Part shown: positions 28,553 through 62,019 of the stretch, piece after piece | Position numbering within the stretch: the first letter of the stretch is position 1 | How the letters are laid out: each line of letters opens with the position of its first letter | Source of the DNA: a virus | Reading direction: 5' to 3' (one strand) | Length of the DNA: 64,000 nt | IMG/VR virus record: IMGVR_UViG_3300042922_000265 | Location: 62,001 to 126,000 of that record | The notes under the pieces: generated by a model | Databases searched by the model: none | What the model was told of the DNA's origin: nothing | Seen by the model: only the letters and a program-made list of their open reading frames with translations | Made by a program: the position numbers and the translations under genes

Positions 28553-31500
28553 TTAGCCGAACATCAGGCTGTCGTTGCTGGGATCGTTTGCCGCGACCAC
28601 TCGGCCTGCAGTCCGAGGCGAGGTGGTTCCGCCCTGGCTGATTCCTGGTGGTACTGGCGATGCGGTCCCGCGAGTCCTTCCGCTGGCGACCTTCTGTGCA
28701 ACCCGCTCGTGATCCGCCTGGCGAACCATGGCGAAACGCTCGGCGAGCGCGGTGCGGTCCATGATCAGACCGCGTGACATCTTCTCGAACTGCGCGGCGA
28801 GCTGGTACTTCCGCTCGCGCGTGTTCTGCTCCAGACCGGCAGCGATCATGGCTTCCGCGCAGCGGATTGCCAGGATGCCGTCGGCCTTGGCGGCGCTCTT
28901 GTTCGGGGCCTGCCCCGGAGCAAAGTTCTGACCGGTGCTCAGGTCCGGGTCGGCGAGATCGTCGCCCGCGTTGTTCGCGTAGCCCTTCTCGTCGAACTGG
29001 CTGTCCTGAGACTCTTCCGGGTTGGTGTTGCTGACCGGAGCCGGGACGCTGATGCGATCATCCGGCGCGGCGGTCTCAAGATCCACTGCCTTCTTGCGCA
29101 CGGGCTGTCCCTTCTTCTCGGCCTCAACCTTTCGGGCCTGTCGCAGTGCCAAACCCAGTGCCGGGTACATCGACTCGACCTTGATCTTGTTGTAGGCCGC
29201 GAACTGGCGAGCCGCCCGGTCGATGTTCTTCGGGCTGTGCTGGCGGGCCGACTTGCCGGTGCTGGCGGTCAGCCAGCGATCGAAGACCTGGAAGGTGCGC
29301 AGGCTCGACTCCTTGGCACCAGGGTCGGTGCGCTGGGCGTCAGCGTTCGGGTCGGCGCTCTCAAAGTGATCGCCGGTCAGCTCTTCGCTGGCCGAGTCCT
29401 GAACGGTCGGGTTGACCTCGGTGGCCACCGGGCCTCCGGCATCGCTGCCGTCTGCCTTGAAGGTACGACCGGCGATGCGGGCGTACTCGCGTGCGGTGGC
29501 CTCCAGCTCACGCTTCTGCTGGGCCAGCTTGGCGGTCAGGCTCTTGGCGTACGCCTCGTCGGCCACCAGGTTGTCCTCGGTATTCGAGATCTCCTGGCCG
29601 TCCTTGGGGGTGCTGGCCTCTTCCTCTGCAGGGGTCTCCGTAATGAAGATCTCTTCCTGCTCGCCCTGATCGTTGCGACCGAACGGTCCACCGTCAGTGT
29701 GTGGTCCCTCCGCGAAGTGCGAAGTGCCCGCCGTCTTCCGGCGCGTTGCCAAGGTGCTGCGCTGTGCCATGTTGGCGGTTCCTTTCACGGTGTTCCTACT
29801 GCTTCCAGATTCTGCGGACATTTTTTCCAGGGTCCACAGGGCTGCCTCCCGGTTGAAGTCAGCCTTCTCTTCCGGCGTCAGGTCGCGACCTGCGGTGATG
29901 GCGTCCCACCAATTCGCAACCCTGTGGCCGTAGTAACGCTCCATCCAAGCCAGCTCGTGGCCTGACATCGCGCCGCGCAGCGCGAAGGTCTGCATCGGCA
30001 CCTGCGGCGGCGGTGCGCCCGCTGCCCCTCCGGTGCCGGGGATCGGGATCTTGAGCGTCATGTACTCGGTGGTGTCGACCGGTCCTGCCGGTGGCACCGG
30101 GCCGCCACCCTCGGCGGGTCCAGGGACGCCGCCGCCGTTCGGGTTGCCCATGGCCTCCGGGTTGGGACCCATACCCTGCTGCTCGTCCTCGGCCTGCTCG
30201 CGGTCCAGCTGGTTGGCTTGGGACAGATCAGGCATCGACAGCTCGTCAGGGCTCTCGACGTAGTGGTGGAAGTCGTCGTTGTCGTCCTCGGGGGCCGAGC
30301 CCTCCTCGCGGAGAGTGTCGACCGCCTGCGGGGCCTCGATCTCGCCCCATGCACGCTTCATGATCATGTCGCGCACCTCCTTCTTGAATGAGGCCGTGAT
30401 GACGCCGGTGTGCGACACATAATCGGCTTTGCGGAAGTCATGCAGGCCAGCGGTGCGCAGTGCGCGGACCAGCCGACCTGCAGCGCGATCTTGTAGCGGA
30501 CCGGTGTGCACGTGGTCCATATGGTTCTGGGTCGGGTCGCCCCGATCCTCCATTGGCTCGGTACGACCGTCTGGGTAGTGCATCTGCTGCTGCCAGATGA
30601 CGTACGGTGCGCCGTTCTCGAACGCGGTGGACTTGACCTGCTCGGCCACCGCCGGGTCGGTGGTCATGTAGTCCAAAGCGCCGTTGTTGTGCTCGTCGAA
30701 CCCGTCGCCGCCGGGGCGGTATCCACCGATCTCGTTGTCAGCGGGGTCCAGGCCCTCCAGGGCGTCGTGCAGGCCGCGCGAGATGTCCATGATGCCGTCG
30801 TCACCGACGCCACCGCTGGAGGAAGCTGCCGCTGCGGGATCACCCAGTTCGCCACCGCCGATCGCGTTGCCGACACCAGCTCCGCCACCGCTGGTGGTGC
30901 CACCACCCGAGCTGCCACCCGAGCCGTCATAGATCGGGCTGTCGCCACGCGCCTTGGACATCTGCTCGGTCTCGCAGGTCTGTCCTGGTGGGCATTCTGC
31001 ACCATGGATGTGCTTGCGCTTACCCACGATGACCTTGGAGGCCACAGCAGTCTCGTCTGCGGGGTCGAAGACGTAGCTCAGCTCAAAGAAGCTGAGCTTG
31101 TGGCAGGACTCGTAGACCAGCTTCTGCTCCATCTTGCCGGTCTTCTTGTTGCGGATGTTGATCCGCTCGCCCTTCTGCGCGAGGACGTGGTAGCACATGT
31201 CCTCCATATCCTGGGCCTTGTTGCCGCAGGCTGAGCAGATAGTAAACCCGGCCTCTGCTCCCATGGAGACGGAATCGAGTCCACCGGTCTTGATCTCGTT
31301 GGCCAGCAGAGGGAACCGCTGGGCGTCGATCTCCTGGACAACCTCAATGTACTTGTCTCGACCGTTCTCGATGTAGCGGGATGCTACAACGACACCGCGC
31401 GCCTCGTTGGGATCGTAATTTTCGTGGTTGACGAAGACGGGCTTACCCACGAAGGTGTGCGCGGCCTCTCGCAGCTCGTTGCTGGGCCAGCCGTCAAAGT

Positions 31501-31669
31501 TCTGGTTGACCCGTGCACTGATCGCCCGGACCACCGTGTACAGATAGCCGGGCTTGATCTCAAAGCCGGGGAGAGAATAGCTCTTGAGAATCCGCTTGCG
31601 GATGGCCTGCTTGGACGGCGTGCGGATGACGTACTTCTGGTCAACCACCAACTCGCGCGTGGTGCTCAC
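28553..31669 (-). CDS. Capsid maturation protease fused to a long scaffold-like tail, 1038 aa
   Basis: Residues ~1-200 carry a phage prohead-protease pattern: a His in VFVNHENYDP, Ser in LDSVSMGAE and the FFELSYVFDPAD segment, consistent with herpesvirus-type serine proteases of tailed phages. A CSACG ... C knuckle near residue 145 may bind zinc. Residues ~240-1038 are Gly/Ser/Asp/Glu-rich with helical parts, probably scaffold or internal protein sequence. GTG start 7 nt after GAGGAGG. Protease plus scaffold in one gene is known from other phages; this tail is unusually long. Confidence 0.75.
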   Translation of the reverse strand: MSTTRELVVDQKYVIRTPSKQAIRKRILKSYSLPGFEIKPGYLYTVVRAISARVNQNFDGWPSNELREAAHTFVGKPVFVNHENYDPNEARGVVVASRYIENGRDKYIEVVQEIDAQRFPLLANEIKTGGLDSVSMGAEAGFTICSACGNKAQDMEDMCYHVLAQKGERINIRNKKTGKMEQKLVYESCHKLSFFELSYVFDPADETAVASKVIVGKRKHIHGAECPPGQTCETEQMSKARGDSPIYDGSGGSSGGGTTSGGGAGVGNAIGGGELGDPAAAASSSGGVGDDGIMDISRGLHDALEGLDPADNEIGGYRPGGDGFDEHNNGALDYMTTDPAVAEQVKSTAFENGAPYVIWQQQMHYPDGRTEPMEDRGDPTQNHMDHVHTGPLQDRAAGRLVRALRTAGLHDFRKADYVSHTGVITASFKKEVRDMIMKRAWGEIEAPQAVDTLREEGSAPEDDNDDFHHYVESPDELSMPDLSQANQLDREQAEDEQQGMGPNPEAMGNPNGGGVPGPAEGGGPVPPAGPVDTTEYMTLKIPIPGTGGAAGAPPPQVPMQTFALRGAMSGHELAWMERYYGHRVANWWDAITAGRDLTPEEKADFNREAALWTLEKMSAESGSSRNTVKGTANMAQRSTLATRRKTAGTSHFAEGPHTDGGPFGRNDQGEQEEIFITETPAEEEASTPKDGQEISNTEDNLVADEAYAKSLTAKLAQQKRELEATAREYARIAGRTFKADGSDAGGPVATEVNPTVQDSASEELTGDHFESADPNADAQRTDPGAKESSLRTFQVFDRWLTASTGKSARQHSPKNIDRAARQFAAYNKIKVESMYPALGLALRQARKVEAEKKGQPVRKKAVDLETAAPDDRISVPAPVSNTNPEESQDSQFDEKGYANNAGDDLADPDLSTGQNFAPGQAPNKSAAKADGILAIRCAEAMIAAGLEQNTRERKYQLAAQFEKMSRGLIMDRTALAERFAMVRQADHERVAQKVASGRTRGTASPVPPGISQGGTTSPRTAGRVVAANDPSNDSLMFG

Positions 31670-31704: not shown

Positions 31705-34700
31705 TTACCACAGGCCGACGCTGTTCTCGGCCTCGTAGTGCGTGCCCCGCAGGTCCAGCTGGTCCAGGTTGCCCGCGCCGCCGCGCTTGCCCTCTTGGAT
31801 CAGTGCGGCCTGCTCGGCGGGCGAGTAATTCCGACCTGCGGTGCGCAGCATCGCCTGGCGGAATGCTGGGGACGCGGCGAAGTCGTCGTACTGGCCACCG
31901 CCGCCACCGGGAGCGTCCAGGGCCGACCCACCGGCAGCTGCCTGGCGTTGGAACTCGGCCACGATGTCACGAGGAGCTTCCTCGCCGCTGAAGTCGGCAG
32001 CGGTCTTGGAGTACGGGTCGAAATCGTCCGGGATGTGCTCGGCCTCGACCGCGCGCGCCTGGCGTGGTGCCCGAATGCTGACAACCTCGGGCTCCACGGG
32101 TGGGCGACGCGGCCCGTTGCCTGCGCGAGTAATGCCTGCACCACGCGTCATAGCTGTCACGGTCTCACCGTCGCTGCTGGACTGGCCCTTGCCCCAATCC
32201 GCACGAGCCTGGTCCAGGCCCTTGGTGAGGTGGTTCTTCTCGGGCTCCTCGGTGACGTCCTCGCGGTTGTCCGAGTAGTTGTCCTTGACGTTGTCCTTGG
32301 ACTGCTCCCAGTCGGTCTTGTTGAACCCGCCCGAGCCGTTGAACGGCTTGTGGTCGGCGGTGCCGTCCGGGTAGGCCGCCATGAGCCAGTCACGGTCGGC
32401 GTGCAGCTGTCGGCTGGAGAAGATGCCGCTGATCGCATCAGTGACGCCACCGATTGCGTCTGTGGCCATGCCGACGCCGTCACCGATCATGCCGCCGATG
32501 TCGCCCACGGTGCTCATGACGTCACCGAAGCCATCCAGGCCACCTGACATCGGCGATGCGCCCATGTCGCTGGTGGTGCCGGGATCAGTCTGCGTACCGC
32601 TCGCTGCAGGATCGTCGACCGCTGCGGTCCCCGCCGTGTCGATGGGGCCAGCGACCGCGCTGGCACCGGTTGCAGCATCCGTGGTGGCCTGAGGGGTCAC
32701 CGGAGGCGGAACAGCAGCACCTGGCGTCACCGGAGCTGTTGCCGGGTCCGCCGGGAGGTCAGCGTGCCGACGGCGGCTGGTCTTGTTGGTGGCCGTGGCG
32801 TCTGCCGCTGCGCTTGCGGGGTCACCAGGAGCGGACACTGCAGCGGTGTCGTTTCCACCGATGCCGGGTCCCTGGACCGCCGGTGCGGCGCTGGTGTCGG
32901 CACCGGTGCCGCTGCTGCCCCCTGCTGCTGAGAGGTCCAGTTTCTGGCCGGGCTGGATCAGATTGGCATCACCGCCGATGACGTCCTTGTTGGAGTCGTA
33001 CAGGCCCTGCCAGTTGTCGCCCAGGCCCTGAGACTCGGCGATACCCGAAAGGGTGTCACCCGACTGGACCTCATAGGTCCCACCACCAGCGGCAGCTCCG
33101 CCCTCACCAGGTGCATCACCCTTGACGCCGTTGCCCTGGTTGTACATCTCGTTGTAGGCGTTGGGTTGGCCACCTGCGGCACCACCCTCACCGGCAGCGT
33201 CACCCTTGGTGCCGTTGCCTTGGCCATACTGCTGGTTGTAGAAGTTCGGGCCGTCCGAGCCACCAGCGGCGGGCGCGCCCGTGCCAGTGCCCGGTGCTGC
33301 GCCACCCGGCTTGTCGTACACACCGCCGGGGTTGGCGAACGCACTGCCCTCCGGCAGCGGAGACGCTGGCTCGTTACCAGGCGCGTACGGAGTCACCGGG
33401 TTGGCTGAGCTGAACGGCGCTGCCGCCGAACCGCCGCCCGCCGGGGCAGCGGTCGGAGCGGCGGGCTGGGACTCGTTGAAGGCGTCCCCACCAGCAAACG
33501 GCGAGTTGCTCGGCATCTTGGGGGTCGACGACGGGTTGTTGCCAGGACCATACGGCAGCACAGGGTCACCCGGTGCGGCATGACGGCGCAGACTGGCCAC
33601 CAGCTGGTCGGCGTCCACGCCCTTCTCCCGCGCGCGCTCCACGTCGTCGCGGATCTGCTCGACCCGGTCCTCCATGTTGCCCAGGTCGTCTTCCTGGGGG
33701 CGCTCGGCCCAGTCGCGGATGTCCTCCAGCGCACCACGGGCCTCACCCGTATTGCGAACGGTCCAGTCCTTGATGGTCTGGTCGTCGGCCTGCTTCTGGT
33801 ACGGACGACGGCCCTTGTTGCCCTTGCCGCCCTTGTTCAGGTGGCTGGACTGCATGGTCAGGTAGGCGGCGTAGCCGTGCGAGCACAGCCGACCGACGAA
33901 CGTCAGGCGGCGCTGGAAAGCCCACTTCCCCCAGTCGCACGCGCAGTGCCAATGAGTGATCGACTGGGCACCGCCGCCACCGTATGCGCCGCCCTTCTTG
34001 ATCATGACGTCGTAGGTGCCGTGATCACCCTGGACGCTGGCGTAGATGCGGTCGTAGTCGACGTCCTTGACGGTGACGCGGCCCTCCCGGCGCAGACGCT
34101 GAGCCTTCTGGCGCACGTCCTTCCAGGCAGCGGTCCGCAGCATCTCGTCGGCCTCGACCAGCTCACCGTACTGCGCGGTGTGGTGGGCGCATCCGCCATG
34201 CACGTGACCCGCGCGGGTGATGAATCCCGCCGGGTCGTTCCTAAAAGCCGCAACCTCCGCCGAAACGGGGGCGTGGGTGTCGGCATAGCGCGAGTCCAGG
34301 CCAGCGGGACGGTAGCTGCCGTGCTTGGTGGTCAGGTCGCCCCAACCGCCGCCCAAGCTGGGCAGCGGCAGTGGGTCTTCCTGGCTGATCTGCTCGCCGA
34401 TCTGCCCACCGAGATCCGCGCCGAGTGCGGCGGAATCCTGGGCAGCCGGATCAACGTTGGGATCGCCATGAATGGCGCGCTCTGCAGCGCCACCGGCCAG
34501 ACCCTGCGCCACGCCACGGGCCAGCGGAACAGCCAGTGCTGCCGGGTTGGCGTGCAGGAACCGACCGTGGTGCTCGGCGAAGTGCACGATGCCGTCAGGG
34601 CCGGTGGTCTCGCGATCGTCCTCGGTGACGTCCTGGTCGCGCAGGTATTCGTCCTCGGTGTCGTTGACGACCATGAAGCCGGGCTCGAACGGGGTCTTCT

Positions 34701-35331
34701 CGATGTCGGTGTTGAGAACGTCGGCCTGGTGGTAGCTACCGAAGCGATTCTGCTGCGCGTCGGTGCTCATCCACTGATCAGCTGACACCGGAGCGTAGGG
34801 GTCCTCGTCCATCCCTTCTTCATCGAAGTGATGAGGGTTGGTGTCGATACCGGGGTGGCCACCGCCGTAGAGCCCTTCGGCCTGGTTGTCCTGGTACTGC
34901 TCGTGGAACGGGTGTCCCGCCGGGTAGGCGTCCTCCGGGTCGGCCTCCATGCCGCCGTGCGACGGGTAGCCCAAACCGGCGCTCTTGGCGAACAGGTCCG
35001 GGTTCGGGCCGGGGGTGCCGCGCTCGTCACCCTCGTCGCGGCTACGGTCCTCGAACGTCAGCGAGTCCGCTGGGCTGGTGCGCTCATCGGCGTCGATCTC
35101 GTGGATCGGCTGGATCGTCGACTCGGTCAGCGGACCCACACCGTACTGCGGTGCCGGGTCGTAGGGGAGATCGACGCTGTTGCTGCGATCGACGGGTGCG
35201 AACCCCACCTTGGTGGCAGGCATCCAGACGTCGAAGTCCTGCCCTGCCACGCGGTACTCAGTGCGACCGCGCGTGGTCTTGGATTCGACGATCTGGCCGT
35301 AGCCGTACTCGTCGGTGTAGACCTGCTGCAT
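31705..35331 (-). CDS. Large virion protein with SWIM-type zinc knuckle and LysM domain, 1208 aa
   Basis: Residues ~1-340 are acidic and Pro/Asp/His-rich. Near residue 460 a SWIM-like pattern (HWHCACDWGKW ... RLCSHGYAAYL, CxC then CxH) suggests zinc and nucleic-acid binding. Near residue 770 a LysM domain (TYEVQSGDTLSGIAESQGLG ... PGQKLDL) suggests peptidoglycan or chitin binding. Gly/Pro/Ala-rich linkers join these, and the C-terminus is helical. Probably an internal or injected virion protein of the head operon. Its ATG lies behind the strongest ribosome-hiding stem-loop in the window. Confidence 0.65.
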   Translation of the reverse strand: MQQVYTDEYGYGQIVESKTTRGRTEYRVAGQDFDVWMPATKVGFAPVDRSNSVDLPYDPAPQYGVGPLTESTIQPIHEIDADERTSPADSLTFEDRSRDEGDERGTPGPNPDLFAKSAGLGYPSHGGMEADPEDAYPAGHPFHEQYQDNQAEGLYGGGHPGIDTNPHHFDEEGMDEDPYAPVSADQWMSTDAQQNRFGSYHQADVLNTDIEKTPFEPGFMVVNDTEDEYLRDQDVTEDDRETTGPDGIVHFAEHHGRFLHANPAALAVPLARGVAQGLAGGAAERAIHGDPNVDPAAQDSAALGADLGGQIGEQISQEDPLPLPSLGGGWGDLTTKHGSYRPAGLDSRYADTHAPVSAEVAAFRNDPAGFITRAGHVHGGCAHHTAQYGELVEADEMLRTAAWKDVRQKAQRLRREGRVTVKDVDYDRIYASVQGDHGTYDVMIKKGGAYGGGGAQSITHWHCACDWGKWAFQRRLTFVGRLCSHGYAAYLTMQSSHLNKGGKGNKGRRPYQKQADDQTIKDWTVRNTGEARGALEDIRDWAERPQEDDLGNMEDRVEQIRDDVERAREKGVDADQLVASLRRHAAPGDPVLPYGPGNNPSSTPKMPSNSPFAGGDAFNESQPAAPTAAPAGGGSAAAPFSSANPVTPYAPGNEPASPLPEGSAFANPGGVYDKPGGAAPGTGTGAPAAGGSDGPNFYNQQYGQGNGTKGDAAGEGGAAGGQPNAYNEMYNQGNGVKGDAPGEGGAAAGGGTYEVQSGDTLSGIAESQGLGDNWQGLYDSNKDVIGGDANLIQPGQKLDLSAAGGSSGTGADTSAAPAVQGPGIGGNDTAAVSAPGDPASAAADATATNKTSRRRHADLPADPATAPVTPGAAVPPPVTPQATTDAATGASAVAGPIDTAGTAAVDDPAASGTQTDPGTTSDMGASPMSGGLDGFGDVMSTVGDIGGMIGDGVGMATDAIGGVTDAISGIFSSRQLHADRDWLMAAYPDGTADHKPFNGSGGFNKTDWEQSKDNVKDNYSDNREDVTEEPEKNHLTKGLDQARADWGKGQSSSDGETVTAMTRGAGITRAGNGPRRPPVEPEVVSIRAPRQARAVEAEHIPDDFDPYSKTAADFSGEEAPRDIVAEFQRQAAAGGSALDAPGGGGGQYDDFAASPAFRQAMLRTAGRNYSPAEQAALIQEGKRGGAGNLDQLDLRGTHYEAENSVGLW

Positions 35332-37249: not shown

Positions 37250-39754
37250 TTACCACTGCGGCTCGACGCCGAACACTTCCTTGAACTGTTCGACCAGATC
37301 CTCCAGCACCCGACGCGACTCGGGCGCACCACCGGCCTGGATCTCGGCCCAGTCGCCCTGGATCTGGCTACGGTAGCCGTCGGCGTTCAGCGAGCGCCAG
37401 AAGCTGTTGTCCCGGATCAGGTCAGAGACCCGTGGAGGGCCAGCCGCGTGCACCTCGCGGCGCGTGACCTGCTGCTCGACGAACTCCTGGCTGACCTTCT
37501 GGTGACGGCCCAGAGACGACGGGCCGTTGGTCCAGCGGTTGCCCTTGGCCGCCGTCAGGTTCTGCGTCGGGCGGTTGTCGTCGGACTCCTCCGGGCGCAT
37601 GCGGTTACGCTGCGGCTCGTGTGGCTCCGGGACGCCCGGTGGCAGCTCAGGACCCATCGGACCGGCGGGACCCTTGGCCTGCGGTCCTGACGCCTGCGGG
37701 CCATTGACCTGGCTGGTGCCGTGCTTCTTGGCGAAGAAGCTGCCTGCTGCGGGCGCGCCGGGGCTCGGAGCACCAGGACCCATGGCTGCCGGAGGGGCTC
37801 CGCCGGGACCAGCGGCCTGGCCCGGAGGCGGTGCACCGGGTGCTCCTGGTGCCTCCATCATCGGCTGACCGTCGGGACCCATCGGGGTGCCCGGTGGAAT
37901 ACCCATGGCTCCGGGAGGTGCCATGCCTCCGGCCATCTGCTGCTCCATCATGGACTTCTGCATGTCGATCTGCATGTCCTGCATCTCGGCCTGGTCGATA
38001 CCGGCCACCGCCTGGGCCTCGCCCAGCTCGGTCTGGGTCTTGCCCTGGCGCAGCTGCAGGGTTGCCATGAGGTGCTGAGCCAGCTCCGGCGGGTACGGCA
38101 GGTTCTGCTCGTCGCAGAGCTTCTGCACCTTGGCCATGGTCTGGGCCGTGGCCATCAGCTTGTTGACCGACTCCTCGGACTGGCGCTCCAGCTCCTGCTC
38201 GAACTCGACGTCGATGTTGACCGACATCGTCTTGTCCGAGATCGGCACGCCCATGGCCTTGAGCTGGCTGATGAACGCCCGCTCCTGGCTCTCGTCGCGC
38301 AGGTTCAGCGTGGAGAACTTGACATCCGGGATGAGCAGCTTGGGCACCTTGCGGATGTACTCGCGCCCGGTCTCGGGGTCGACGTCCTTGATCTCGCGGT
38401 ACAGCGGGATGCGCCGCCCGCCCTTGAGGTCATAGTCGAAGTGACCCTGGGCCTCGGCGATCACCTCGGCGCGCTTGGTGATGTGGCGCTTGAGATGGTT
38501 CTGGAATCCCACCATCATCTGGGTGACGAACTCGCGGTTGAGCGCCGAGCTGGCGTACGCGCCGCCGTCGCCACCTGTGATCAGTGCCGCGCCGATGCCC
38601 CATGCCTGCATGAGCTTGGACTGCACGCGCTCAAAATCGGCGTCCAGGTTCGGCACCGACTCGCGACCGAAGACGTTCTCGACCTTCAGACCGAAGTTGT
38701 GCACCACCAGGCGGAAGTCGGCAGCCAGAGCGGTCTGGAAGTCATCTCGCGCATCCTCCAGCTCTTCCTGGGTCGGCAGCCACGGCGTGCCGTCACCGAG
38801 GTTCTCCGAGCCCAGAGTGGCCAGGATCAGGGGGCTGTAGAGACGGTCGGCCACCGCGTCCTGGGCGGCGTTGAGCGACTCTTCCTGCATCAGGGTGCGG
38901 AAGCTGCGCAGCAGGTGTGGGGTGCCACGACGAGCCCACGGGCTGTTGCGGTTGACCACGCGGGAGATCAGGGCCTCCGACATGTCCAGGCCGTCGTTCT
39001 GTGCGGCGGCCTCGATCAGCTCGGGGTAGTTCTTGACCAGCTCCTGATACTCGTGGTCACGCTGCAGACGCTCGCTGGGGGTCTCTTCGGTCGTCGACAG
39101 CGAGCTGCCCTGACCCATCGGCCCCTGGCGCAGGTTCTCCACCATCTCCTTGACCATGAGCTGCACGCGGTCACGCTGGACGAACATGGACCGGGACACG
39201 CGCAGCATGTCCGGGTTCAGGATCTCCTCGCTGGACCAGACGCCCAGAGACTCGTCGAAGTGGGCCAGGCTGGTGACCTCACCGACGGTGAAGTACTCGC
39301 GCGCGAACTGATCAGGCAGGAAGCTCAGGTAGTCCAGGTCGGGACCGAGGAACATGTCCTCATAGAACTTCTTGATCAGGGGGTCTTTGCTGTCGAACTC
39401 CATGCCGACAACAGGGAACTTGCTGTAGATGTCGATGAGCAGAGGCACCAGATCGTGGGTGGCATAGAAGAGACGGCACCAGTGCCGGATCTGCTTCAGC
39501 TCGTCCTCGTTCTCGACGTCGTGAGGGATACCCTTGTCGGCCAGGGTGCCCAGGGGCTGCCGGATCTTAGGCAGAGCGATCTGCATGTTGGACCCCTCGC
39601 GCTTCATGGCGCGGATGAGGGTCGTGTTGTTGACCGAGTTCTTCTGGCCGATCTGCTCCTGCAGGGACCTGCGGGCTTCGGCCAGCCTGTCAGTGCCGAT
39701 CTTGGCGTTCTTGGGCAACCACAGAGCGAAGTTGCTGTCATTGGCGGGGCTCAT
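37250..39754 (-). CDS. Portal protein, 834 aa
   Basis: ATG at 39754 overlaps the stop of the zinc-finger gene. Residues ~60-500 match portal architecture: a wing/stem region with conserved KIRQPLG, VPLLIDIYSKFPVVG and LNREFVTQMMVGFQ segments, and a crown. Residues ~640-834 form a Pro/Gly/Met/Gln-rich extension. The portal is the dodecameric DNA gate at the capsid vertex. No terminase gene precedes it here. Confidence 0.8.
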   Translation of the reverse strand: MSPANDSNFALWLPKNAKIGTDRLAEARRSLQEQIGQKNSVNNTTLIRAMKREGSNMQIALPKIRQPLGTLADKGIPHDVENEDELKQIRHWCRLFYATHDLVPLLIDIYSKFPVVGMEFDSKDPLIKKFYEDMFLGPDLDYLSFLPDQFAREYFTVGEVTSLAHFDESLGVWSSEEILNPDMLRVSRSMFVQRDRVQLMVKEMVENLRQGPMGQGSSLSTTEETPSERLQRDHEYQELVKNYPELIEAAAQNDGLDMSEALISRVVNRNSPWARRGTPHLLRSFRTLMQEESLNAAQDAVADRLYSPLILATLGSENLGDGTPWLPTQEELEDARDDFQTALAADFRLVVHNFGLKVENVFGRESVPNLDADFERVQSKLMQAWGIGAALITGGDGGAYASSALNREFVTQMMVGFQNHLKRHITKRAEVIAEAQGHFDYDLKGGRRIPLYREIKDVDPETGREYIRKVPKLLIPDVKFSTLNLRDESQERAFISQLKAMGVPISDKTMSVNIDVEFEQELERQSEESVNKLMATAQTMAKVQKLCDEQNLPYPPELAQHLMATLQLRQGKTQTELGEAQAVAGIDQAEMQDMQIDMQKSMMEQQMAGGMAPPGAMGIPPGTPMGPDGQPMMEAPGAPGAPPPGQAAGPGGAPPAAMGPGAPSPGAPAAGSFFAKKHGTSQVNGPQASGPQAKGPAGPMGPELPPGVPEPHEPQRNRMRPEESDDNRPTQNLTAAKGNRWTNGPSSLGRHQKVSQEFVEQQVTRREVHAAGPPRVSDLIRDNSFWRSLNADGYRSQIQGDWAEIQAGGAPESRRVLEDLVEQFKEVFGVEPQW

Positions 39755-40116
39755 GCTGCGACCTTCCTCAGGCACACCTCGGTGTACCAAGCCTTATCGG
39801 GTGCCTTCTCATGCTCTTTGGTCTCCAGCTCCACCTGGAAGCTCGGATAGACCGGAGTCCCTCCGTTGATGACCTGGGTGCTGATCTCGGTGACCACACC
39901 CACCCCGTCGAATACGGTCCCAGCGGTACGGGCCTCTACCCGATCGCCCACCTTGTAGGGGCAGGTCAGCTGGATGAAGAGCAGAGCCAGCTCCTCCGAA
40001 GTCGGAGGGAGCTGCAGAGCACACTCCTGGCAAAAGGTTCGACTGGTCCCCTGCTCGGTGTAGGCGATCTCCTTGATCGCCTTGCACCCATAACAGAGGT
40101 CGTTGGCACTGGCCAT
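39751..40116 (-). CDS. Zinc-finger protein, 121 aa
   Basis: CYGC and CQEC pairs in the first 33 residues form a likely zinc ribbon; a beta domain follows (YKVGDRVEARTAGTVFDGVG) of SH3/KOW type. Coupled to the portal by an ATGA overlap. Could bind RNA or DNA or help head assembly; role unknown. Confidence 0.6.
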   Translation of the reverse strand: MASANDLCYGCKAIKEIAYTEQGTSRTFCQECALQLPPTSEELALLFIQLTCPYKVGDRVEARTAGTVFDGVGVVTEISTQVINGGTPVYPSFQVELETKEHEKAPDKAWYTEVCLRKVAA

Positions 40117-40139: not shown

Positions 40140-43100
40140 CTACTTGAACTGGGGCTTGACCCAGTTGCCCTTGTCGTCGCGTTTTGCCCAGTCCTTGGGC
40201 GGCTGCTTGCCCGGCGTGGTAACTGGCGGCTCCTTCGGGCCTTCCTCGTAGCCCTTGTTGTCGTCGTCGCTGTAGACGGTCCAGTCCGCAAAGAAGTCGC
40301 GGCTGGCCTGCTTCTGTGGGCAGTGATGGACGTTGGGGTCCCACAGCATGGCGTCGCAAGCCGAGCAGAACTTCTCCCCGTTGCGGGTCACCACGTTGTG
40401 GTCATCGTCGCCGTAGTCCGCACCGATGCGAGAGAACGCACCCTGCTGTGCGCCCTGGTCGGCGTACGGCCAGTGGCCAAAGCTGGCCGTCTTGGAGGTC
40501 TCCATGTCGGTCTCACCGGGGGCGTGCGGTGTCGGCGCACTGTCCAGCTCGTCGTCGGCGAAGAAGTCGATGTCCTCGGCGTAGTCCTGGAACGGTCCGT
40601 CACCGGACTCGTTGTTGGACTCCTCGGTATCAGCCTCGAACTGCCGGTTGGCCATGATCACGTTCTCGCGGACCGGGATCTCGCGAGCCAGGAACATCTG
40701 CGCTTCCTCGCCGCTGGCCAGGTGCTGGCCGGTGCCGATTGCGTAGGTGTACCAGAGCTTGCCGCAGCGGCACATACCGTGGCTCGGTGGCAGATGAGAC
40801 TGACCGCACGGGCAATGGAACGCCTGACGGATATGGCTCACGTAGCCATTGAGGTGATCGTCGAACTCCCACCCGGCCACCTTGGGCTGGAAGACGCTGG
40901 CCGTCTTCGGGTGCGGCTCCAGGCCCAGGGTCTCATGCAGCTTGTCTTGGGCGCGCGGGCCGACCTTCTTGTTCTGGAGGAACTGGTCGACCTCGCCCTC
41001 GCCGCCGATGTCCAGACCCTGCTCGCCACGGCGCTTGTCGTAGCGCTGGTAGTCCTCGACTACGCCCGAGGTCTTGGCCTTGGGCAGATCGTTGACGTCC
41101 ATGTTGTCGCTGAACTGCGGCTTCTCGCTGTGTCCGGGGAACTCGAATGCATCCATCGAGTCGCCGCCGCTGGGGGGCTTCCATGTCTCACCCCCCGTCC
41201 GGGTGGTGTTACTGGCGAAAGGGTGGCGGCTCCCCATGTGGACGGCGTCCACACCCATCGGCACGCCCGCGCTGGCCATGAACTGGCCCGCGTTGAACCG
41301 GACGTTGTCCTGGCCGAACATGTCGGCCAGCGACGCGGCGATGCCCATCCGGTGCTCCGGCGGCAGGCTCTGGATGGCCTCGGCGACATGCTGGTAGTGC
41401 TTGCGGCTCATGGCCTCCAGCAGCATGTTGTAGCCGTTGACGCTCAGGTCGTAGTGACGCGCGATCTTGAGGGCGTGACCGGCCAGAGCGAGCTGACGGC
41501 TGGCTTCCTTCTTCTCGCTGGAGCCCGAGTCGCTGCCGCCGCCCGAGGACTCACCGCCTCCGGCGGGAGCCGCAGGTGCTGCCGGGGCTGGCGGTGCCAT
41601 ACCGGCCTGCTGCGACGCGGCGGCTGCCGGGTCCACAGCGCTCTGCGGACTGACGTCCACGGTGCCTTCCGGCGGGGTGACGTCCAGCGGATTGGCGGCC
41701 TGCTCGACCGACCGCGCGAACTCGATCGCCTGAACCGCCTGCTGCAGCGGGTCGATGATCATCTGGTATTCCTGCGTCTTCTGGTCAACCAGCTGCGTGA
41801 CAGCCTGGCCAGCCTGATCCAGCAGGGCACCGTTGTCTACACCAGGTGTAGTCGGAGCGGCAGGCGGAGCCGATGGGTCCGGGGCCGCTCCTGGTGCGGC
41901 AGGGGCAGCCGGGGCCGGAGCGGCGGCGGCGGGCTGCTCACCAAAAGACTGCTTGCGCCGTCCCATGTGCGGCGGAGGTCCACCAGGACCTGACGACGGC
42001 CCTTGTGGGGCACCTCCGGCGCTTTCCATCAGGATCTGCTCCAGGGTGCCCGGAGGCAGGCCCAGCGCGTCCTCGATCTGCTCTACAGCCACCAGTTCGG
42101 TATCCGGCGGTAGGGCTCCTGCGGCGTCGGGAGCGTATTCCTCGACTCCCGAGAAGTCATCCTGAGCCAGCGGCGGAGCGTCTGACAGATCCGGCGGTCC
42201 CGGAGGTGCTTGCGGGTCGCCGGGCGGTGGCCCAGCAGGATCGCCGCCGTCTTCAGGACCGAGATCAGGTGGCCCAGGCGGAGCTTCAGGATCACCAGCC
42301 GGTCCCGCATCGTCCGCCGGAGGGCCGGGTGCCTCTTCAGGCGCATCCGAAGGCGGGCCATCTTCACCCCCATCCGAGAACGGGTTCTCCGACGAACCGC
42401 CACTGTCACTGTCTGACGAGTCGCCATCGTTGCTCTCGGTGTCGTCGGACTCCGACTCGCCGCCCTTCTCAGCCGCGCCCGACGGCGGTCCGTCGCTGTC
42501 GGTGTCGCTGCCCTCAGGACCGTCGGTGTCCTTGTCGTCCGAGCCGCTGCTGGACTCGCTGTCGTGGCTGTCCGACGAGTCATCGTCGTCGCAGTCGCAG
42601 TTCTCGTCGGCCTGGCGAATCAGGTTCGCGAGCATGAAGTAGGTGGAGTCGTCGATGCCGGTGTCGGCATAGTGGTTCAGGGTGGACAGCTTGGCCACGC
42701 GCAGACCGTTGTCGCTGGCGAAGTCCTTGTACAGCTCCACGGCCAGACGGCGCGCTTCCCGGTGAGTTCCGGTGTCGCCACCCTCGCTGAAATTGCGCTC
42801 GACCTTCTCTGGTCCGCCCTGGTCCACCGAGTCCAGGTAGGCGTCGAAGTTGCCCTCCGGGATCAGGTCACCGTCGTCGAAGTCCTCGGCCAGCAGCTGG
42901 CGCGCGGCGTGGCGCGGGTCCTTGTGCTTGGGGACGTTGGGGTCCTTGTTCTTGCCCTCGGCATCTGAGCCGTCCCCGGTGTTGGTCTCGACCTCATCGG
43001 TGACCGACTTGTCGCCGTCCTGGACTTTCTTGTACTGGGAATCGGAGATGGTGCGGCTGTCGCCGTCGCCATCATCCTTCGGCTTCTTGGTGGGGTCGTC

Positions 43101-43397
43101 GGAGTTGTCCTCGCCCAGGGTGGCCACGAACTCACGCTTCATCGCGTTGTGAACGCGGCGCATGACTCCGGTGTTGGGGAAGGCTCCGGCAGCCTCGATG
43201 GTCTTGCGGATGTCCGCCTTGGCGTGGTGCCAGCGGTCCTCGAACTCGTCCTTGCCGGTGCTGCCCATGAGGAACGGTCCGTAATCGTCCCGGACGTTCT
43301 GGACTGCGGTGGCCAGTCGGGTGGCTGCCACCCGTGCCTGCCGCTGTGGTGCCTGCTGGGCGTCTACATCCGCCTCAAACAGCCCGAAGTCACTCAT
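40140..43397 (-). CDS. Large acidic head protein with zinc knuckles, 1085 aa
   Basis: An N-terminal helical domain of ~100 residues, then ~450 residues very rich in Asp, Ser, Gly and Pro, a helical Ala/Gln part, and a C-terminal third with two Cys/His clusters (FHCPCGQSHLPPSHGMCRCG and FCSACDAML ... HHCP). The acidic middle resembles DNA-mimic or scaffold sequence. First gene of the head operon and therefore probably an internal virion protein. Function unknown. Confidence 0.6.
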   Translation of the reverse strand: MSDFGLFEADVDAQQAPQRQARVAATRLATAVQNVRDDYGPFLMGSTGKDEFEDRWHHAKADIRKTIEAAGAFPNTGVMRRVHNAMKREFVATLGEDNSDDPTKKPKDDGDGDSRTISDSQYKKVQDGDKSVTDEVETNTGDGSDAEGKNKDPNVPKHKDPRHAARQLLAEDFDDGDLIPEGNFDAYLDSVDQGGPEKVERNFSEGGDTGTHREARRLAVELYKDFASDNGLRVAKLSTLNHYADTGIDDSTYFMLANLIRQADENCDCDDDDSSDSHDSESSSGSDDKDTDGPEGSDTDSDGPPSGAAEKGGESESDDTESNDGDSSDSDSGGSSENPFSDGGEDGPPSDAPEEAPGPPADDAGPAGDPEAPPGPPDLGPEDGGDPAGPPPGDPQAPPGPPDLSDAPPLAQDDFSGVEEYAPDAAGALPPDTELVAVEQIEDALGLPPGTLEQILMESAGGAPQGPSSGPGGPPPHMGRRKQSFGEQPAAAAPAPAAPAAPGAAPDPSAPPAAPTTPGVDNGALLDQAGQAVTQLVDQKTQEYQMIIDPLQQAVQAIEFARSVEQAANPLDVTPPEGTVDVSPQSAVDPAAAASQQAGMAPPAPAAPAAPAGGGESSGGGSDSGSSEKKEASRQLALAGHALKIARHYDLSVNGYNMLLEAMSRKHYQHVAEAIQSLPPEHRMGIAASLADMFGQDNVRFNAGQFMASAGVPMGVDAVHMGSRHPFASNTTRTGGETWKPPSGGDSMDAFEFPGHSEKPQFSDNMDVNDLPKAKTSGVVEDYQRYDKRRGEQGLDIGGEGEVDQFLQNKKVGPRAQDKLHETLGLEPHPKTASVFQPKVAGWEFDDHLNGYVSHIRQAFHCPCGQSHLPPSHGMCRCGKLWYTYAIGTGQHLASGEEAQMFLAREIPVRENVIMANRQFEADTEESNNESGDGPFQDYAEDIDFFADDELDSAPTPHAPGETDMETSKTASFGHWPYADQGAQQGAFSRIGADYGDDDHNVVTRNGEKFCSACDAMLWDPNVHHCPQKQASRDFFADWTVYSDDDNKGYEEGPKEPPVTTPGKQPPKDWAKRDDKGNWVKPQFK

Positions 43398-43438: not shown

Positions 43439-43584
43439 AAGCTGCTGCAGGTTTCTACAGGTTGGCTGGCCCTCCCCCGTTACAGGGGACCTCCCTCGCG
43501 CTCTCTCGACGGTCTATGCGCACTACTCCGTCGGTGCCCCGCTCAGTTCGCCACCGTCAGTTGCAACATCGGGTGGAGGCCATG

Positions 43585-43655
43585 CGGCCCATCCCGGAGT
43601 CGAACCGGGCTATCGCTGGGGTTAGAAGCCAGCTAGGTCGCCAGACCAATGAGCC
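43585..43655 (-). tRNA. tRNA-Arg-like (anticodon TCT), irregular
   Basis: Acceptor GGCTCAT pairs with ATGGGCC (discriminator G) and the T arm is perfect (CCCGG TTCGACT CCGGG). The D arm is short (GGTC-TGGC-GACC). The anticodon stem GCTGG/CCAGC is perfect only if the loop has 9 nt (CTTCTAACC), with TCT in the usual context. No CCA is encoded. May be a modified or non-canonical tRNA. Confidence 0.6.
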
Positions 43656-43934: not shown

Positions 43935-44297
43935 TTACATGGTGAAGGCGTTGCGTAGGCACAGCGGGTAGCTGGCGCAGAGCGCGGACGCTTTCTCTCC
44001 AGGTTCGATGGCGATAGCCGTGAACTCGTCACCGAGATCCGGTTCGACCACCTTGGAGACGACGAGATTGTGTCCCATGCTGGCCTCGGCGGCCAGAGTC
44101 AGGAGTTCGTTCTCGTCATTGACGTTGACGATCACGATGAAGTTGGACGTGCGAATCCACTCGCGCGTAACTTCGGGGTGCTCGTCGTAGAACTGAAAGG
44201 CTGCGTGACACGCCTGAGCGGTCTGCAAGCCTGGGGGGATGTCAGCCCGAACTGCGATGTACAGCTTGTCCATCAGTTCGCGGGGCTTCTCATTCAT
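43935..44297 (-). CDS. PTH2-type peptidyl-tRNA hydrolase, 120 aa
   Basis: KLYIAVRADIPPGLQTAQAC then HAA near the N-terminus match the PTH2 fold (archaeal/eukaryotic-type peptidyl-tRNA hydrolase): first strand, then the helix with Gln and His. The usual Gly-Lys before the Ala-Gln is Gly-Leu here. The C-terminus (EFTAIAIEPGE) fits the last PTH2 strand. It cleaves the ester between peptide and tRNA. Embedded in the tRNA cluster, which supports a tRNA role. A second, more canonical member lies at 61612-62019. Confidence 0.75.
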   Translation of the reverse strand: MNEKPRELMDKLYIAVRADIPPGLQTAQACHAAFQFYDEHPEVTREWIRTSNFIVIVNVNDENELLTLAAEASMGHNLVVSKVVEPDLGDEFTAIAIEPGEKASALCASYPLCLRNAFTM

Positions 44298-44340: not shown

Positions 44341-44378
44341 CCATACTGACCACTATAGCATCTCTACAGGGTTTAGAG

Positions 44379-44460
44379 TAGCCGAAGTGGGACTCGAACC
44401 CACACGTCCGAAGACACGGCATTTTGAGTACCGCGCGTCTACCAGTTTCGCCATTCGGCC
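44379..44460 (-). tRNA. tRNA-Leu (CAA)
   Basis: Class II tRNA: acceptor GGCCGAA/TTCGGCT with discriminator A, anticodon loop CTCAAAA in a CGGTA/TGCCG stem, variable arm GTCTTCGGAC, and a perfect T arm GTGGG TTCGAGT CCCAC. No encoded CCA. Confidence 0.9.
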
Positions 44461-44503
44461 ATCAGCTCGTCATCTCCGGCCTGCAGTCCTCGGATGACTC
44501 ACG

Positions 44504-44577
44504 TGCCCCTGGGGAGACTCGAACTCCCAACCACACGGGTTTAAACCGTGCCGCTCTACCAATTGGCGTACGAGGGC
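44504..44577 (-). tRNA. tRNA with anticodon TAA (Leu by code), class I body
   Basis: Acceptor GCCCTCG/CAGGGGC with one mismatch and discriminator A; anticodon arm CACGG TTTAAAC CCGTG; T arm GGGAG TTCGAGT CTCCC. The variable loop is only TGGTT, so this is a class I body, unlike normal tRNA-Leu. Charging identity cannot be told from sequence. Confidence 0.75.
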
Positions 44578-44582
44578 CTACG

Positions 44583-44655
44583 TACTCCGAGCGGGACTCG
44601 AACCCGCACTGGGTGGCCTCTCAGACCACTGCCTCTGCCATTGGGCTACCGGAGC
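44583..44655 (-). tRNA. tRNA with anticodon GAG (Leu by code), class I body
   Basis: Acceptor GCTCCGG/TCGGAGT with wobble ends and discriminator A; anticodon arm GTGGT CTGAGAG GCCAC; variable loop CCAGT; T arm GCGGG TTCGAGT CCCGC. As with the TAA tRNA, the long variable arm expected of tRNA-Leu is missing. Confidence 0.75.
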
Positions 44656-44660
44656 TTACG

Positions 44661-44746
44661 TACCTGGAGAGGGACTCGAACCCTCACGACCGTCAAAGGC
44701 CACTGGATTCTGAGTCCAGCGCGTCTACCAATTCCACCACCCAGGC
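44661..44746 (-). tRNA. tRNA-Leu (CAG)
   Basis: Class II: acceptor GCCTGGG/TCCAGGT, discriminator A, anticodon loop CTCAGAA in a CTGGA/TCCAG stem, long variable arm and T arm GAGGG TTCGAGT CCCTC. Confidence 0.9.
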
Positions 44747-44774
44747 ATAGGTGCTGCTCTATTCAGTTGTCACG

Positions 44775-44857
44775 CGGAAGGTAGAGGAATCGAACCCCCA
44801 GGAATCACCCCGCCCCGGTATTCGACGCCGGTTGCCGACCATTCAGCGGTACCCTCC
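44775..44857 (-). tRNA. tRNA-Ser (CGA)
   Basis: Class II with acceptor GGAGGGT/ACCTTCC, discriminator G, anticodon loop GTCGAAT (one mismatch closes the stem) and a long variable arm. The T arm uses wobble pairs around TTCGATT. Confidence 0.8.
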
Positions 44858-44869
44858 AAGGTTACTGCG

Positions 44870-44952
44870 CGGAAGGCGGGAGACTTGAACTCCACGGGGG
44901 TTAGTCCGTATCGGTTTAGCAAACCGACTGCATCACCTGATGCTCACCCTCC
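44870..44952 (-). tRNA. tRNA-Ser (GCT)
   Basis: Class II with acceptor GGAGGGT/GCCTTCC, discriminator G, a perfect anticodon arm TCGGT TTGCTAA ACCGA, long variable arm and T arm around TTCAAGT. First tRNA of the cluster in transcription order; its acceptor is nearly the same as that of tRNA-Ser (CGA). Confidence 0.9.
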
Positions 44953-45034: not shown

Positions 45035-46453
45035 TCAGAAGCTGTCGCGGCGGGTCAAGGGCCGCTTGGCACGCCAGTCCTCGTCACGCTGCTGGGCTAG
45101 CGGGCGGGCAACCTCCGACTCGGCGAAGGCCCGACCTTCGTCGCTCAAGTTCGGGCTGTGGTGCAGGTCAGGCTCGATGTTGTCGGTCACGTGATCAAAC
45201 ATCGCGGTGCCAACACCACGGCGCTGCCAATCCGGGTGGACTCGTAGGTCCCAGATCTCACCCTTCTTGCGCGGGTGATCGCCGATCCACTGCATGTGGC
45301 CGACCATCTGGTCACCGACGTGCGCCGAGATCGCAGGAAAGGCACCGGGGTCGACCTTCTCGCTGGGCTGGATCACGTCGGGAAAGGGGGCGGCTCCAAG
45401 CGGGTGGTGCTGAAAGGTCAGCCCCTCCGGGTACGGACCGTTGAGACCAGCCATCTGGAGAACCCTATGGCCACGTTCGGCCTTCGGACGGATGTCGACC
45501 ATCTCGCCGATGCCGTATTTGTCATGGGTGACGATCCCGTCATGTCCCTTGGCGATCAGGGCGTCAGAAAGAGCTTGGCCGGTCGCGCCGCCATGGGCCT
45601 GACTCAGATCATGCTTCCAGTTGCCATCGTTGTGCGGCATGTACAGCGGGTTCTCGAAACTGACATTGCCGCGCTCCCACCCAGGGTGGGGCGTACCCGT
45701 GGCGTACTGGCCATCGGACATGTACCGGCCCCACGGCTCGACCTTCTGGGCATAGTCATCAGGACCGGCCCACTGTCGCACGCCGCCGTTGTTGCGGATG
45801 TAGGGCATCGTCACGGCGGCAGTCCGATGAGCGTTCAGGACCATGTCGTTGGGCACGTGCTCGGGATGGTTCGGCGACCAGCGGATGTCCCAGGGAACGT
45901 CAGGGTGGTGCCCACGCCACTTCTTCGGCCACGGGCTGCCCTGCAGGGCTGCAGTGCGGTTCTGTGCCCTCTGGTCAGCCACCTGGAGGTAGGGCTTCAT
46001 CTCGGCCTCATTCTGACCAGTGTAGGGGACATGGGCGGGCGTGTACTGCTTCACCGCCGTCCATCCCCAGTCCGCCGGGTTGTCCTCGGCCTTGGTGACG
46101 TGCTGGTCACCAGGATCGTGGTAATCCGGGTCAGACTGTGCCCAGGCGCGACCGGCGCTGGAGAAGTGATTGGAGTGCCGGATCGGGTAGCTGGCCTCGT
46201 AGGTGGCCGGATCGGACTGTGCGTGCTTGAGCATGGCGCTGGCCACGCCCATCCGCTGGAAGTCCGGGTGCACGGTGATGGAATCGATCTCACCGTGCGG
46301 GTGCCAGTGCAGGTGGCCCAGAGGACGCCCATCCTGGGCGTGCCGCGCCATGATGCCGTTGGACCAGTGTGTGTCGAACGGCTCGAACGTCAGCGGTGGC
46401 AGGTCACCGTTTGCTCCAGCGGTGACGACTCCCCAGAGCCCCCAGGTGTCCAT
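45035..46453 (-). CDS. GNAT / ART-like / GNAT fusion protein, 472 aa
   Basis: Two GNAT acetyltransferase segments flank a central domain. GNAT-1 (~20-100) has VHPDFQRMGVASAM, GNAT-2 (~345-430) has VHPDWQRRGVGTAMF; both contain the acetyl-CoA loop Q/RxxGxA/G, and both end in HS...GRAxAxS, so they look like an internal duplication. The middle (~215-325) has SFENPLYMPH and AKGHDGIVTHDKYGIGEMVD, resembling polyvalent-protein ADP-ribosyltransferases with Glu317 as a possible catalytic acid. Likely modifies host targets. Domain calls are by pattern. Upstream of the tRNA cluster. Confidence 0.6.
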   Translation of the reverse strand: MDTWGLWGVVTAGANGDLPPLTFEPFDTHWSNGIMARHAQDGRPLGHLHWHPHGEIDSITVHPDFQRMGVASAMLKHAQSDPATYEASYPIRHSNHFSSAGRAWAQSDPDYHDPGDQHVTKAEDNPADWGWTAVKQYTPAHVPYTGQNEAEMKPYLQVADQRAQNRTAALQGSPWPKKWRGHHPDVPWDIRWSPNHPEHVPNDMVLNAHRTAAVTMPYIRNNGGVRQWAGPDDYAQKVEPWGRYMSDGQYATGTPHPGWERGNVSFENPLYMPHNDGNWKHDLSQAHGGATGQALSDALIAKGHDGIVTHDKYGIGEMVDIRPKAERGHRVLQMAGLNGPYPEGLTFQHHPLGAAPFPDVIQPSEKVDPGAFPAISAHVGDQMVGHMQWIGDHPRKKGEIWDLRVHPDWQRRGVGTAMFDHVTDNIEPDLHHSPNLSDEGRAFAESEVARPLAQQRDEDWRAKRPLTRRDSF

Positions 46454-46456
46454 CGG

Positions 46457-46681
46457 TCAGCCCTTGAGCGCCTTGATGCGGTCGGGCCGGAACCCCTGCC
46501 AGTGGGTGGCTTCGTCGACCACGACGACCGGCACACCAAGGTAGTTCAACGCCTCCACGGCGGCCTTGGCCGCCGGGTCGGTAGTGACATCGAGGACCTC
46601 ATAGTCCACCCCGACCTTCTCCAGCTCCTGCTTGGTGAGCTTGCAGGGCTGGCAGCCGGGCTTGGTGTAGAGCATGACCAT
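46457..46681 (-). CDS. nrdH: NrdH-like glutaredoxin, 74 aa
   Basis: Active site CQPC at residues 10-13, followed by the thioredoxin-fold pattern and the NrdH-typical WQGFRPDRI near the C-terminus. NrdH proteins reduce class Ib ribonucleotide reductase and are common in Actinobacteria and their phages. ATG lies 6 nt after a TAGAAT -10, so the mRNA may be leaderless. Confidence 0.9.
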   Translation of the reverse strand: MVMLYTKPGCQPCKLTKQELEKVGVDYEVLDVTTDPAAKAAVEALNYLGVPVVVVDEATHWQGFRPDRIKALKG

Positions 46682-47491: not shown

Positions 47492-47956
47492 CTAGTAGAG
47501 GAGCTGATCGTCAAAGTCCTCGAACGTCGAGGTCTGAGCAGCCGCCACTTTCGGACGGTTGGGGATCAGCTCAGCCACCTGTGATACGAAAGCCTGCACA
47601 GCACGCTGCGCAGCTTCAGGAGTCCAGGTGGAGGTCAAAGTGCGGGCGTGCCGCTGAGCGCGGTACAGCGTTTCTGAGCGGCTCTCCGGGCATTCATGCT
47701 CGGCCAGGAAATTGCTCGCCTCCAGGCGCAGCGTCTGGGCCACCTTGCGGGGGACGCTGGACGTCTTCTCGGACGGCTTGTCGTCGTCCCGATCCTCCCA
47801 GTTGTCTGGGTCCAGATCGTACTTCTCGTGCTCGCGCTGCGGTGCGTTCTTGGTCTCGGCCCAAGGGACACCAGCAGTACGGTGGGTCGGTCCTACCGAC
47901 CGGCGCTGGATGTGCGCGGGCACCGCCAGCGGATCGCGCTCTGCATTCTTGAACAT
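47492..47956 (-). CDS. Unknown protein, 154 aa
   Basis: ATG after AGGAGG in a stem-loop. N-terminus His/Pro-rich, middle helical (RKVAQTLRLEASNFLAEHEC), C-terminus acidic (TFEDFDDQLLY). Not recognised. Confidence 0.55.
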   Translation of the reverse strand: MFKNAERDPLAVPAHIQRRSVGPTHRTAGVPWAETKNAPQREHEKYDLDPDNWEDRDDDKPSEKTSSVPRKVAQTLRLEASNFLAEHECPESRSETLYRAQRHARTLTSTWTPEAAQRAVQAFVSQVAELIPNRPKVAAAQTSTFEDFDDQLLY

Positions 47957-61612: not shown

Positions 61613-62019
61613 CAGAACAGCTTCAACCATCCGGTGACCGGGGCGAGCTTCTCGTCAGTGTCAGGCCCCACCGCGATGCAGGTGAACGTGGTGCGCCCAC
61701 CGAACTCGGTGAGCCCGTTGTCGAGGATGGGCGCGGCGATGAGCCCCTGGGCCAGCGCGTCGGTGTAGACGTCACTCAACTGGACCTCGGACTCCGCCCG
61801 GACGACGACCTTGGTGAAGCTGTTCTGCAGCCACTCGTCGACCAGCAGAGCCTTCTTGGACCACTCCGCCGTCTCCTCCTCGGTGCCACTGAATCCCTGC
61901 AGGTAGGGCAGGACGGCGGCCATGGAGGCGTGGGCGGCCTGGGCCATCAGCTTGCCGCTGCGGACCTTGTGTCCCTCGGTGTTGCGGAGATCGGTCCGCA
62001 TGACGATGACCTGCTTCAT
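61612..62019 (-). CDS. PTH2 peptidyl-tRNA hydrolase, 135 aa
   Basis: Clear PTH2 features: KQVIVMRTDL, RSGKLMAQAAHAS with the family Gly-Lys, Gln and His, and the end motif GLTEFGGRTTFTCIAVGPD. The enzyme releases tRNA from peptidyl-tRNA and is the archaeal/eukaryotic type, rare in bacteria. Coupled to a small membrane gene downstream. A second, divergent PTH2 gene lies in the tRNA cluster. Confidence 0.9.
   Translation of the reverse strand: MKQVIVMRTDLRNTEGHKVRSGKLMAQAAHASMAAVLPYLQGFSGTEEETAEWSKKALLVDEWLQNSFTKVVVRAESEVQLSDVYTDALAQGLIAAPILDNGLTEFGGRTTFTCIAVGPDTDEKLAPVTGWLKLF

Follow-up and report, generated by a model that had tools for sequence, protein, structure and literature searches.

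The DNA analysed here, referred to throughout as the window, is a stretch of 64,000 nucleotides covering positions 62,001 to 126,000 of the IMG/VR virus record IMGVR_UViG_3300042922_000265 (167,373 bases). Gene order and DNA similarity group the source genome with Myrna, Phabba and ScoobyDoobyDoo (Myrnavirus, subfamily Ceeclamvirinae), and on these grounds we assign the window to Myrnavirus-like (cluster C2) mycobacteriophage DNA, from a relative of mycobacterium phage Myrna. The gene of interest is an open reading frame of 472 amino acids at positions 45035-46453 on the minus strand, of which the parent record holds one copy, 100% identical. It is referred to as the slot gene, and in all relatives examined its position lies just before the tRNA cluster, a large virion protein gene and the portal gene. 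The features around and within it are as follows.

28553..31669, minus strand: prohead protease fusion protein (phrog_18299 head maturation protease, E 2e-19)
40140..43397, minus strand: 1085-aa virion-associated protein (phrog_2922)
43584-43655, minus strand: tRNA with CTA anticodon (ARAGORN)
43935..44297, minus strand: PTH2 peptidyl-tRNA hydrolase (Pfam PF01981, E 3e-10)
44378..44952, minus strand: tRNA cluster of five genes, four Leu and one Ser (ARAGORN; Rfam)
45035..46453, minus strand: predicted GNAT-ART-GNAT slot gene, 472 aa (open reading frame; single copy in the parent record)
45119..45451, minus strand: GNAT domain 2, residues 335-445, motif A QRRGVG at 410-415 (Pfam)
45458..45823, minus strand: ART-like domain, residues 211-332 (family alignment; AlphaFold2; Foldseek)
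45827..46108, minus strand: linker, residues 116-209, with RTAA at 166 (low pLDDT; motif)
46109..46420, minus strand: GNAT domain 1, residues 12-115, motif A QRMGVA at 66-71 (Pfam; model)
46457..46681, minus strand: NrdH-like glutaredoxin gene (Pfam PF00462)

The NrdH-like gene is a conserved upstream neighbour of the slot in C2 phages, as seen from synteny with Phabba, ScoobyDoobyDoo and Myrna, while the tRNA cluster, the PTH2 gene and the CTA-anticodon tRNA follow downstream on the same strand. ARAGORN names the last of these tRNA-Pyl, and it is also annotated in ScoobyDoobyDoo; it is a possible amber-suppressor tRNA, and TAG is the stop codon of 47 of the 210 predicted open reading frames in the genome. 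Between the Leu and Ser tRNAs, a tRNA-like stretch at 44776-44857 (minus strand) matches the Rfam tRNA-Sec model at 29 bits, under the cut-off, and is absent from the ARAGORN calls.

Domain content of the slot protein

The Pfam model Acetyltransf_1 matches the 472-aa protein with 58.8 bits (cut-off 20.7), spread over two stretches, and each stretch taken singly in the parent record also clears this threshold (32.5 and 30.6 bits). Each also carries an acetyl-CoA loop of the R/Q-x-x-G-x-G/A form, namely QRMGVA at residues 66-71 (DNA 46241-46258) and QRRGVG at residues 410-415 (DNA 45209-45226); two such loops compare with 0.12 expected from shuffled sequences (P = 0.006). With scores above the curated cut-off and the loop in place, both domains belong to the GNAT superfamily, and the two GNAT domains of the preliminary description therefore stand. 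They share 32% identity with each other. It is RibT, MshD and RimI-like enzymes, rather than TacT, that come closest to the slot GNAT profile, and in a fold search with the full-length model NatT comes first and GNATs next, with TacT at ranks 39 and 49, not above other GNATs.

The middle of the protein, residues 211-332, has no Pfam match at E <= 1. Its relatives were found in Gordonia phage Skog, in a podovirus from a spring metagenome and at eleven IMG/VR loci. An alignment of ten diverse sequences contains invariant columns that include N221, E239, P240, G242, Y244, N268, P269, G303, D305 and E317, the last being the glutamate (codon 45503-45505) of the segment GEMVD at residues 316-320. 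Compared with the catalytic-type patterns of ADP-ribosyltransferases (H-Y-[ED] or R-S-E), Y244 and E317 are invariant in the same ten sequences and the strand-1 residue is variable, being R, K or H across the family (R220 in the window protein) with no fixed His. A search of the middle domain for an STS or ExE motif found neither, and it thus does not show the R-S-E pattern of T4 Alt.

An AlphaFold2 model of this domain, built on the ten-sequence family alignment, has a mean pLDDT of 84.6. A Foldseek search of the PDB with this model gives top hits that are nearly all members of the ART superfamily, MbcT, 6kyf, exotoxin A domain III and the tankyrases foremost, with individually weak E-values of 0.06 to 0.6. 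We take 6kyf to be the anti-CRISPR AcrIF11, an ADP-ribosyltransferase. Among predicted viral structures (BFVD), the model matches the Skog protein (6e-17) and an ART-PolyVal-like protein of a Salmonella phage (E 9.5e-4, probability 1.00), and many of the lower matches are PolyVal ADP-ribosyltransferases. Because of this model and its matches to the Skog, ART-PolyVal-like and PolyVal proteins, an ART-superfamily fold is supported as a prediction for the middle domain, in agreement with the ART-like centre first suggested from the letters of the DNA. The likeness to MbcT and NatT would point to NAD+ use in general.

Membership of the ART-PolyVal family PF18760 was considered and dropped: the model matches neither the middle domain (E <= 1) nor anything else in the parent record, and hhalign against a single ART-PolyVal sequence gives a weak result (14%). 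Reference ART-PolyVal members searched in 150 genomes gave no match, but the control of this search gave no signal either, so that it carries no information. A sequence search of solved structures with the ART-like profile gave no match. Judged by these profile comparisons, the middle domain is a separate family outside PF18760.

Mosaic origin and variation of the slot

The three parts of the slot protein have different best phage matches: Phabba gp84 for residues 3-201 (65% identity), Gordonia phage Skog for residues 214-361 (46%, with environmental phages also close) and ScoobyDoobyDoo gp74 for residues 327-472 (56%). Within these segments, identity reaches 77-79% between GNAT domain 1 and Phabba gp84, 60% between the linker at residues 116-209 and the Phabba tail, and 56-59% between GNAT domain 2 and ScoobyDoobyDoo gp74. 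The gene is, by these matches, a three-part mosaic of differently related segments. The full-length model has higher-confidence islands at about residues 20-85, 211-332 and 345-430, the third being the weakest, separated by low-confidence linkers. Neither the full protein nor the C-terminal GNAT, used as queries against viral contigs, gave a match. All three domains are under purifying selection, with dN/dS of 0.18-0.49 relative to their nearest relatives.

The same position is filled differently in related phages. In Phabba it holds one GNAT; in ScoobyDoobyDoo an ART-like domain of the R/[ST]/E type, a GNAT and a second ART-like tail; in Myrna ART-like segments with no GNAT detected; in Blubba ParB, GNAT and ART-like segments; in Tonenili the same set followed by a second GNAT; and in I3 and Bigswole ParB and ART-like segments, again with no GNAT detected. 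Only in the aligned R/[ST]/E-type family does the ART-like label on these segments go beyond a reading by eye, and even there it rests on the motif, since that domain has no library match in the other slot proteins. A common origin of the R/[ST]/E-type slot domain and the middle domain was not seen when the two were compared. In the Bigswole slot protein (L012:6797-9178, minus strand) the middle domain is reduced to its first and last residues, fused in frame, and was therefore once present there; a further deletion is seen at the position of this relic in most other C1 phages. As judged from these gene comparisons, the slot is a syntenic site in which GNAT, ParB and ART-like modules have been shuffled.

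Virion-gene context

In all relatives checked, the slot leads into virion-protein and portal genes. In the locus L013, a GNAT and the middle domain open an 808-aa protein that is separated by one gene from the gene of the major head protein. One protein of an uncultivated 150-kb phage (L017:4506-6740) unites two GNATs with the middle domain and an R/[ST]/E-type domain, and its gene has virion structural and minor tail genes as neighbours. At a further locus, L018, the middle domain belongs to a protein of 2670 aa that also carries LPD22, GGDEF and a weak match to ART-PolyVal, and that by its predicted domains is a polyvalent protein in the sense of PMC5512222. In Rhodococcus phage E3, gp70 (L007:5101-8260), labelled structural by its depositors, has a GNAT domain inside it, and the C-terminal module of the 1085-aa window protein matches this gp70 when the translations are compared by eye. 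The gp70 gene is flagged as a pseudogene and joined from two pieces.

Polyvalent proteins of phages and conjugative elements were described by Iyer et al. 2017 (PMC5512222), who included GNAT adjoining ART in one polypeptide, as well as a solo GNAT close to the late genes of the cluster C phage Alice, and who proposed capsid delivery. Our slot GNAT profile detects this protein, Alice gp113, with 22.9 bits. The slot protein itself combines unlike predicted catalytic domains in one polypeptide and is encoded with virion genes (portal, protease, capsid), as is characteristic of the phage members of this class.

A short motif shared with head proteins

The motif [RK]TA[AGS] was spotted post hoc in the very proteins in which it was then counted, and occurs 12 times in 7,704 amino acids of the head and slot open reading frames versus 4 times in 39,940 elsewhere in the genome; four scrambled or altered control motifs showed no comparable enrichment. 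The motif-rich reading frames of this region lie at 20438-22153, 28553-31669, 31705-35331, 40140-43397 and 45035-46453. The corresponding counts in E3 are 7 in 5,253 versus 2 in 10,092, and the family of the downstream virion protein in nine phages holds 30 sites versus 1.5 expected, in orthologues that are not independent of one another. A DNA repeat was ruled out as the source of the motif; the codons at the sites are diverse, and the motif is therefore a feature at the protein level.

In the window protein, RTAA occurs at residue 166 in the linker and at residue 210 bordering the ART-like domain, and the proteins of Tonenili and L013 also have sites between modules. Strict RTA sites were not found in the slot proteins of Phabba, Blubba and Myrna, and one site elsewhere (reading frame 39751-40116) may fall within a small folded protein. 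Upstream of the slot, a 154-aa reading frame (47492-47956, minus strand) has RTAG at residue 26, and its product is possibly another processed protein.

We propose that [RK]TA[AGS] may be a cleavage site of the prohead protease, a reasonable hypothesis because the prohead proteases of T4 and giant phages cleave head and ejected proteins at short motifs (PMC5694885). The fusion protein at 28553..31669 is a candidate for the enzyme that would process the RTA[AGS] sites, and E3 gp77 is likewise annotated as a prohead protease.

Interpretation

The analysis shows which domains the slot protein contains, that its gene is a mosaic, that the syntenic slot holds swapped modules, that virion genes lie around it and that selection on the domains is purifying. 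From this we infer the enzymatic activity, protein targets, packaging, cleavage and injection of the protein, and consider it on balance probable that it is a polyvalent-type host-modifying effector of a Myrna-like mycobacteriophage, combining GNAT and ART and both packaged and ejected. The protein would be made late, beside the head genes, and would probably be packaged in the phage head, where the prohead protease possibly cleaves it between domains at [RK]TA|[AGS]. It would then be ejected into the host along with the DNA, and early in infection the two RimI-like GNAT domains would acetylate host proteins while the ART-superfamily domain would modify host proteins using NAD+ or deplete NAD+. 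We put forward only tentatively the broader possibility that the Ceeclamvirinae share a modular effector cassette, a polyprotein of exchangeable GNAT, ART-like and ParB modules that is packaged in the head and that the prohead protease cuts at [RK]TA|[AGS] into single enzymes, which enter the host together. If that is true, both the cleavage signal that links slot and head proteome and the ART family represented by the middle domain would be new.

It is possible, and to us as doubtful as the shared cassette, that the slot protein modifies the host as an enzyme produced and active within the infected cell, neither packaged nor injected. Its upstream neighbours, NrdH and small reading frames, are not virion proteins, which suits such a role, but the surrounding late and head genes, the presence of a GNAT fused into the structural-labelled E3 protein and the RTA motifs common to slot and head proteins all argue for the packaged effector.

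Unlikely, in our judgement, is that the middle domain is an NAD+-consuming RES-like enzyme (an NAD+ phosphorylase or NADase) and not a protein ADP-ribosyltransferase. The RES-type toxins MbcT and NatT are the nearest solved structures in both fold searches, but with E-values of 0.05 or worse, and the predicted viral matches are mostly ART-PolyVal.

The preliminary description had placed the protein in translation: its GNATs, acting as TacT does, would acetylate charged tRNA, its ART would hit translation or defence factors, and the tRNAs and PTH2 would protect the phage. The enzyme types of this combined reading were largely right at the level of domains; the tRNA target and the protection by PTH2 find no support, and we regard the reading as a whole as very unlikely. 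In its favour, the slot gene, tRNAs and PTH2 adjoin in C2 phages; moreover, Pth is able to detoxify the products of TacT, and a toxin that acetylates tRNA is present in M. tuberculosis (PMC9241777). Against this, almost every sequenced relative has PTH2, the 200 phage records with this gene include 194 of mycobacteriophages, and its presence does not track the GNAT. In Bixzunavirus it lies at about 90-97 kb and the slot at about 30 kb, some 60 kb apart; C1 phages carry it away from the slot; and it is present in I3, Bigswole and Myrna though their slots show no detectable GNAT. PTH2 thus belongs to the core genes of the subfamily and has no specific tie to the slot gene. The antitoxin partner of a TacT-type module (DUF1778/RHH) was not found beside the slot gene, whose neighbours are the glutaredoxin gene and tRNAs, and PADLOC gave no match. 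Together with the sequence profile and TacT ranks given above, these results speak against TacT-like action on tRNA, and the self-protection idea is unsupported because PTH2 does not follow the slot GNAT and the GNATs are not TacT-like. PTH2 might nevertheless act against tRNA-acetylating toxins of the host.

Very unlikely too is a recombination hot spot with decaying, functionless domain fragments, for which the highly variable slot architecture and the in-frame fusion of the two domain ends in Bigswole could be cited, against the purifying selection in all three domains and the conserved catalytic-type positions.

Significance and comparison with known systems

Cluster C mycobacteriophages are among the most-sequenced phages and nearly 200 records share the slot, in which the slot gene is annotated just as hypothetical or ParB-like. 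If the packaged-effector reading is right, a variable weapon slot could be studied directly in M. smegmatis, and the analysis would contribute an ART-like family not yet catalogued, along with a candidate protease signal for proteins that actinobacterial phages inject.

The closest parallel is offered by the polyvalent proteins (PMC5512222), with which the slot protein shares several unlike enzymatic domains per polypeptide, a GNAT by an ART and a neighbourhood of virion genes, and its middle domain recurs in the large phage protein with LPD22 and GGDEF. The window protein differs in being small (472 aa) and in having no metallopeptidase, and its ART-like domain differs from the polyvalent ART in being unmatched by PF18760 and in having R, K or H for the fixed strand-1 His. 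Alice gp113, of a cluster C1 mycobacteriophage, is matched by the slot GNAT profile and is likewise encoded among late structural genes, but is a single domain at another locus. T4 Alt, a phage ADP-ribosyltransferase that is packaged and injected (PMC5512222, PMC9503650), provides a functional model for such an enzyme; it belongs to the R-S-E clade, whereas in the window domain, which is joined to GNATs, the Y and E positions are those of the other clade.

The RES-domain NAD+ toxins MbcT and NatT, together with 6kyf, are the best solved folds for the middle domain, but the matches are statistically weak and without sequence relation, and the slot gene has no antitoxin. The last point also separates it from the TacT-type toxins, which share the GNAT superfamily with it but are no closer in sequence or fold than other GNATs. 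Set beside these systems, the slot protein is probably a virion-delivered modifier of host proteins, a type of phage weapon already known in outline. Less expected are the heavy shuffling of an effector slot in a phage group that is among the best sampled, the existence of an ART-like family uncaptured by Pfam and a possible protease signal.
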